A stretch of DNA of 64,000 nucleotides, from positions 2,566,001 to 2,630,000 of the forward strand of contig NZ_JASTLC010000001.1 in NCBI RefSeq assembly GCF_030499575.1. The letters are read 5' to 3'. This document shows positions 1,478 to 4,615 of this stretch, piece after piece; position 1 is the first letter of the stretch; each line of letters opens with the position of its first letter. Both the position numbers and the translations under genes were made by a program. Below the pieces are notes generated by a model. The model was not told where the DNA came from, did not search any database, and saw only the letters and a program-made list of their open reading frames with translations. The DNA comes from Streptomyces sp. DG2A-72 (lineage in GTDB: Bacteria > Actinomycetota > Actinomycetes > Streptomycetales > Streptomycetaceae).

Positions 1478-4615
<3,138 letters not shown>

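Follow-up and report, generated by a model that had tools for sequence, protein, structure and literature searches.

The 64,000-nt stretch of the Streptomyces sp. DG2A-72 genome analysed here (the window) carries an ileS gene whose product, a type 2 isoleucyl-tRNA synthetase (IleRS2), has G59-A60-H61-H62 (GAHH) in place of the class I signature motif HxGH. We are highly confident that this is a housekeeping enzyme of the G/AXHH group, which would keep isoleucine activation, would bind mupirocin only at millimolar concentrations, would by this property make the strain highly mupirocin-resistant and would probably be under T-box control.

The replaced motif was assessed from its codons, by alignment and by comparison across the family. 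Codons 59-62 read GGC GCC CAC CAC, within an uninterrupted frame of 1045 residues. In phmmer alignments, GAHH pairs gap-free with the GVHH of PDB 8c8w, an engineered motif-swap mutant of Priestia megaterium IleRS2, and also with the HVGH of 8c8v and the HVGH of Thermus thermophilus 1ile. This indicates that GAHH is the true signature site, and no HxGH was found elsewhere in the alignments to these three structures. An AlphaFold2 model places it at the N-terminal tip of helix 60-78, in the position of helix alpha1. GAHH was read in 62/62 Streptomycetaceae loci, the window's included, and occurs together with KMSKH in all of the best 120 of 7999 scored proteins. Motifs were read in fetched loci; a strong ileS match was present in 198 of 199 genomes of the genus and 60 of 61 of the family, two overlapping sets. 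Since the family members read have GAHH, it is no chance event or sequencing slip. The sequence-only reading, which had reported the replacement at this site and suggested a comparison with other Streptomyces, is thus confirmed on codons, alignment and family conservation. It had also called the second motif, KMSKH, intact: the motif is present, but "intact" is loose, the fifth residue being His instead of Ser. An alignment or sequencing artefact, with a true HxGH elsewhere or a broken gene, is refuted by the gap-free alignments, the open frame, the identical family motif and the gene's status as sole ileS, and we give it practically no weight.

Type-2 membership is supported by domain content, phylogeny and structure. 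The protein scores 908 bits against the NCBIfam ileS equivalog TIGR00392 (cut-off 621), as expected for a full-length isoleucyl-tRNA synthetase (IleRS). Pfam matches are PF00133, PF08264 and then PF19302 at 849-1038, with no zinc-finger family among them; the C-terminal domain is of the type-2 kind and lacks the zinc motif of type 1 (IleRS1). A tree of 190 rows was built with the motif columns removed and most close Streptomycetaceae dropped beforehand; it sets 28 IleRS1-type rows on one side of a starred branch and the window enzyme with 161 others on the opposite side. The model's closest solved structures are those of P. megaterium IleRS2 (PmIleRS2), aligned over nearly the whole PmIleRS2 length. 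The enzyme is 50% identical to T. thermophilus IleRS2 and 40-42% identical to PmIleRS2, against 25-28% for structures of type 1. Its first motif residue is Gly and its third and fourth are His, which agrees with the G/AXHH group as defined by Brkic 2023.

The window's assembly (10.6 Mb, 3 contigs) yielded a single full ileS match, the window gene. The other three matching pieces are weak and all lie within one 877-aa frame, read as valS. The earlier statement that this is the only ileS visible therefore holds genome-wide and, as the sole ileS, the gene must be functional.

Hyper-resistance of GxHH-type IleRS2 to mupirocin, noted in the sequence-only reading, is on record in the available parts of two papers (PMC10485003, PMC4861432), from which the published values below are taken. 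G/AXHH is found in 86 IleRS of a 379-member tree, all of type 2, and Streptomyces griseus IleRS2 (SgIleRS2) is named as having the same motif (Brkic 2023, PMC10485003). The natural ALHH enzyme of Deinococcus radiodurans has a mupirocin inhibition constant (Ki) of 6.6 mM, which falls to 8.1 uM once the motif is returned to HVGH, an 823-fold change. Introducing GVHH raises the Ki from 0.20 to 35 uM in T. thermophilus IleRS2 (~175-fold, by division of the Table 1 values) and from 1.08 to 460 uM in PmIleRS2 (~430-fold), in the latter with kcat and KM worsened by as much as 10-fold (PMC10485003). The S. griseus enzyme is reported to have a Ki of 10 mM and to restore growth of E. coli in the presence of 100 uM mupirocin (PMC4861432). 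The third His moves into the place that the first His has in catalysis; it lies on the adenine side of the active site, and its clash with mupirocin was modelled (PMC10485003). By analogy, His61 would take the transition-state role of the absent first His and would collide with bound mupirocin; the drug would then bind only at millimolar concentrations while isoleucine activation is kept. To this account the present analysis contributes the motif and where it lies, membership of type 2, the predicted fold, the single gene copy, conservation and the T-box-like leader; catalysis by the third His, the modelled clash and the millimolar Ki come from published related enzymes. The same kind of motif, type 2, a sole ileS and the published Ki of related enzymes together make mupirocin resistance of the strain very likely, in support of the natural high resistance proposed earlier.

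SgIleRS2 is a close parallel: a housekeeping IleRS2 from the same bacterial family with a swapped motif and Asp334, although its Ki of 10 mM was measured whereas the window enzyme is known here from sequence alone (PMC4861432, PMC10485003). The window's D334 probably corresponds to that Asp334, judging from residue number and conservation; the D334A variant of SgIleRS is editing-deficient (PMC4861432). D. radiodurans IleRS2 likewise has a natural non-canonical motif and a millimolar Ki (PMC10485003), but with Ala at position 1 and Leu at X, where the window enzyme has Gly and Ala. PmIleRS2 (8c8u, 8c8v) shares type, fold and full length, and its mutant 8c8w has the same swap. The earlier suggestion to compare the two holds in that alignment places the motif at the same site; the wild type is not an example of the swap, being canonical HVGH with GVHH engineered. 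MupA and MupB are also mupirocin-resistant IleRS, and their NCBIfam models match the window protein with 773 and 751 bits. However, these scores are far under the 1900-bit cut-off, identity to MupA is ~37%, and MupA and MupB are acquired plasmid genes.

Expression of ileS is probably controlled by a T-box leader sensing uncharged tRNA-Ile, as in other actinobacteria, in which translational T-boxes upstream of ileS were described in 2005 (PMC1262725, available part). The T-box core GGTGGTACCGCG lies upstream of ileS in 62/62 Streptomycetaceae loci read; GAAGATCAC is present in 57 of them, GAACATCAC in 1 and neither in 4. AUC is the putative specifier codon, and the UGGU bulge could pair with the ACCA terminus of uncharged tRNA (Table 1). 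When 11 related loci were scanned with the profile, a T-box match at E <=0.01 was obtained in 5 (39-67 bits) and none in 6.

Table 1 Features of the ileS locus in the window.
Feature	Position	Strand	Basis
ileS, isoleucyl-tRNA synthetase type 2 (IleRS2)	1478..4615	+	TIGR00392, Pfam domains, genome search, closest structures
Non-canonical signature motif G59-A60-H61-H62 replacing HxGH	1652..1663	+	Sequence, alignment with 8c8w, 8c8v and 1ile, multiple alignment
D334, same number as editing-domain Asp334 of S. griseus IleRS	2477..2479	+	Invariant in 25-sequence alignment
Second signature motif K598-M-S-K-H602 (KMSKH, not KMSKS)	3269..3283	+	Sequence, alignment
T-box-like leader of ileS, RF00230, whole model 1-219	1183..1440	+	cmscan 42.1 bits, E 7e-8
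Probable specifier codon AUC (isoleucine)	1272..1274	+	T-box alignment position and sequence GAAGATCAC
T-box bulge UGGU	1382..1385	+	Covariance-model alignment

Several points weigh against this account of the enzyme and its control. Resistance of this particular strain is argued from its sequence and from related enzymes, and the likeness to S. griseus depends on the words "the same non-canonical motif" in a paper whose available part leaves the X residue unstated. The leader's score lies under the Rfam gathering score (42.1 against 93 bits) and actinobacterial ileS T-boxes have been termed unusual (PMC1262725), for which reasons we call it T-box-like. Finally, X is Ala in the window enzyme, outside the Ile/Val/Leu/Met/Tyr given for G/AXHH in the Fig. 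1 legend of PMC10485003. Ala is found at X in every Streptomycetaceae locus read, and 184 GxHH matches, some from overlapping loci, have Ala in 75, Thr in 42, Val in 29, Phe in 12, Ser in 11, Ile in 10 and Leu in 5. Thus, on the sequences compared, the mismatch seems due to too short a published list and not to an outlying enzyme in the window.

The wide distribution of the motif raises the alternative that the swap is an old lineage marker, fixed by drift, substrate kinetics or other adenylate mimics, with mupirocin resistance as a by-product. Among 248 aligned IleRS from the phylum, GxHH is the majority state (189), with 42 HxGH, 14 HxGT and 1 each of GxHN, HxGN and AxHT. Eleven loci had been dropped before this alignment: L002-L004 (valS pieces), L034 and L039 (copies from genome G152), L037, L038, L042 and L043 (gene pieces), and L071 and L072 (long). 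The window enzyme belongs to a large clade of Actinomycetota IleRS2 with GxHH, and the third-His state changes just 4 times on the 190-row tree. GxHH also spans very different genomes, from one of 1.3 Mb in a single contig (G359, GTHH) to an 11.5-Mb Streptomyces (G104, GAHH), while X drifts among the seven residues listed above. All of this would suit a marker of descent. Against it, the swap shifts the Ki for mupirocin by a factor of several hundred and brings little gain in catalysis (PMC10485003), and mupirocin is produced by soil pseudomonads, perhaps living beside streptomycetes (PMC4861432); neither observation reveals what selected GxHH. We rate the lineage-marker explanation as plausible, somewhat short of an even chance. 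Across the loci read, GAHH is shared by the whole family and does not set this strain apart. The third His occurs in none of the 28 IleRS1-type rows, in line with Brkic 2023. As a separate observation, 14 of these 28 rows have HxGT, in which the fourth His is lost (L189, L190, L192-L194, L196, L197, L200-L204, L208 and L219).

The swap is tolerated in some IleRS and not in others, for which "no simple mechanism" was found (Brkic 2023, PMC10485003). Two candidate partners of the motif were tried and rejected. A His ending the second motif (KMSKH) accompanies the third His in 60/133 rows and is found in 0/57 others, but each trait changes 4 times on the tree and the independent-pairs p is 1. Residue 49 is Glu in 128/133 third-His rows and Asp in 57/57 others, with Asp also in two HIGH rows (L060, L066); this rule fails on P. 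megaterium and T. thermophilus IleRS2, which combine Glu with HVGH.

These two HIGH rows (genomes G300 and G267, family f12) lie within the GxHH clade; motif reversion has been reported in Deinococcus-Thermus (PMC10485003). They share only eight differences from seven GxHH sisters, including E49D, both motif residues and L588F. Their identity to each other (66.6%) is no higher than to the sisters, so either one or two reversions are possible. GTHH was read at L179 (genome G407) and HYGH in the two other genomes read from its genus, which suggests probable replacement by horizontal transfer. Both class I signature motifs are altered in a distant clade of IleRS. Among the 120 proteins listed for it (P0121-P0240), 110 have GVHH and 90 have EMHKS replacing KMSKS; EMHYS and EFSKS occur too, and Lys is at the first position of the second motif in 0/120. 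It includes loci L183, L184, L186 and L188 from the Actinomycetota genomes G297, G316, G335 and G304, each of which gave a single ileS match at 1e-60. A full-text literature search for EMHKS matched no paper. For KMSKH, sought in combination with a second term, none of the five papers listed out of 881 had the string.

If GAHH conferred resistance to IleRS inhibitors in general, beyond mupirocin, a second synthetase would be an odd addition. The third His lies at the adenine side, so that other adenylate mimics might be affected. However, 5/392 Streptomyces have a second IleRS with HYGH alongside the GAHH copy, four of them in an sbz-like setting: L041/L072:8433-11531 (G175), L277:8415-11522 (G706), L279:8398-11505 (G679) and L278:8311-11490 (G524). 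The second motif is AMSKA in three of these four and AMSKS in one. All four adjoin an adenylation enzyme and GNAT-like genes, the GNAT match in G524 being just below the Pfam cut-off (24.9 against 25 bits). HYGH-type with AMSKA is the motif pair given for SbzA in the available part of PMC12945691. These four copies therefore look like the SbzABC genes of SB-203208-type clusters, by motif and neighbourhood. The sbz cluster makes an IleRS inhibitor, and the main published role of SbzA is isoleucyl transfer, which weakens the argument from second copies. General inhibitor resistance is nevertheless unlikely in our view.

The fifth Streptomyces second copy, in G038 (L071:8591-11788, -), has HYGH and KMSKS. 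It adjoins a divergent tRNA-Ile(GAT) gene (L071:12259-12333, +) that is 84% identical to its nearest other place in the genome, and it lies beside nonribosomal peptide synthetase (NRPS), methyltransferase and phosphopantetheinyl transferase genes. A T-box-like core is visible by eye between ileS and tRNA, although the profile scan gave no T-box there. The pair may possibly serve self-protection or tRNA-dependent biosynthesis. Elsewhere, G959 has an extra GVHH copy beside HYGH, the one such case among 301 genomes of its family, in which all other readings were HYGH. A Rhodococcus opacus plasmid (NZ_CP095404.2, L270:5971-9126) carries an ileS with GTHH and KMSKH among condensation, AMP-binding and carrier-protein (NRPS-type) genes; the host chromosome was not among the sequences read. 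Adenylation or NRPS-type genes thus lie beside 6/7 extra copies, and none of that kind is among G959's four scanned neighbours.

These cases could suggest a two-state switch between HxGH and GxHH in the IleRS2 of actinobacteria, a new copy tending to the opposite state and so covering the other's inhibitors. Six genomes have opposite-state copies: the five Streptomyces (GAHH and HYGH) and G959 (HYGH and GVHH). An unaimed search of the genus found two true second copies in 198 matching genomes, both of opposite state, while two of the searches yielding second copies were aimed at that state. Two genomes count against the switch. G375 has two GVHH copies, one with an in-frame stop (the genome is 7% contaminated), and G280 has a HYGH ileS and, on another contig, L299, an IleRS-like 1255-aa frame 33% identical over 137-843 whose HIGH region is unrecognisable. 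The rule thus fits 6/8 two-copy genomes, and these exceptions lowered a probability that was already small. In addition, four of the five Streptomyces second copies are SbzA-like, SbzA being a known isoleucyl transferase. We therefore consider a switch quite improbable. Left out of the count were the two equal-score GAHH copies of G152, taken for an assembly duplicate; G251 and G284, in which the second match is a frame with HMGH read as valS; and G401, G417 and G466, in which one gene is split in two pieces.

The surroundings of the window's ileS are ordinary cell-division gene surroundings. Downstream, on the opposite strand, lies a DivIVA/Wag31-like gene (171 bits, model cut-off 260; DivIVA domain above cut-off), followed by a gene without an NCBIfam match, which we take to be SepF, and then YggS and PgeF. 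A search of 72,556 plasmid records, 192 of which matched at 1e-60, gave no sign of mobility for the window's ileS. Only two records reached at least 60% identity, one of 11.85 Mb, taken for a chromosome, and the R. opacus plasmid. Upstream, an open reading frame (window 2-1012, -) with a long Lys/Ala-rich stretch (KKAAAKK) runs off the window edge. A thiamine pyrophosphate (TPP) riboswitch was detected at window 42096-42207 (+, 63.4 bits).

The link between motif and resistance is already published, and the window enzyme is a further member of a described group. The side results are more original leads than this main finding, yet they comprise few cases. The HIGH rows, the opposite-state pairs and the doubly altered clade offer natural test cases for why the swap is tolerated in some IleRS only. 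For the family, an independent genome confirms that the altered motif is normal for Streptomycetaceae and for many of the other actinobacteria covered. Thus, when a Streptomyces genome shows GAHH, its annotation should present this as the usual state and not as resistance peculiar to the strain.
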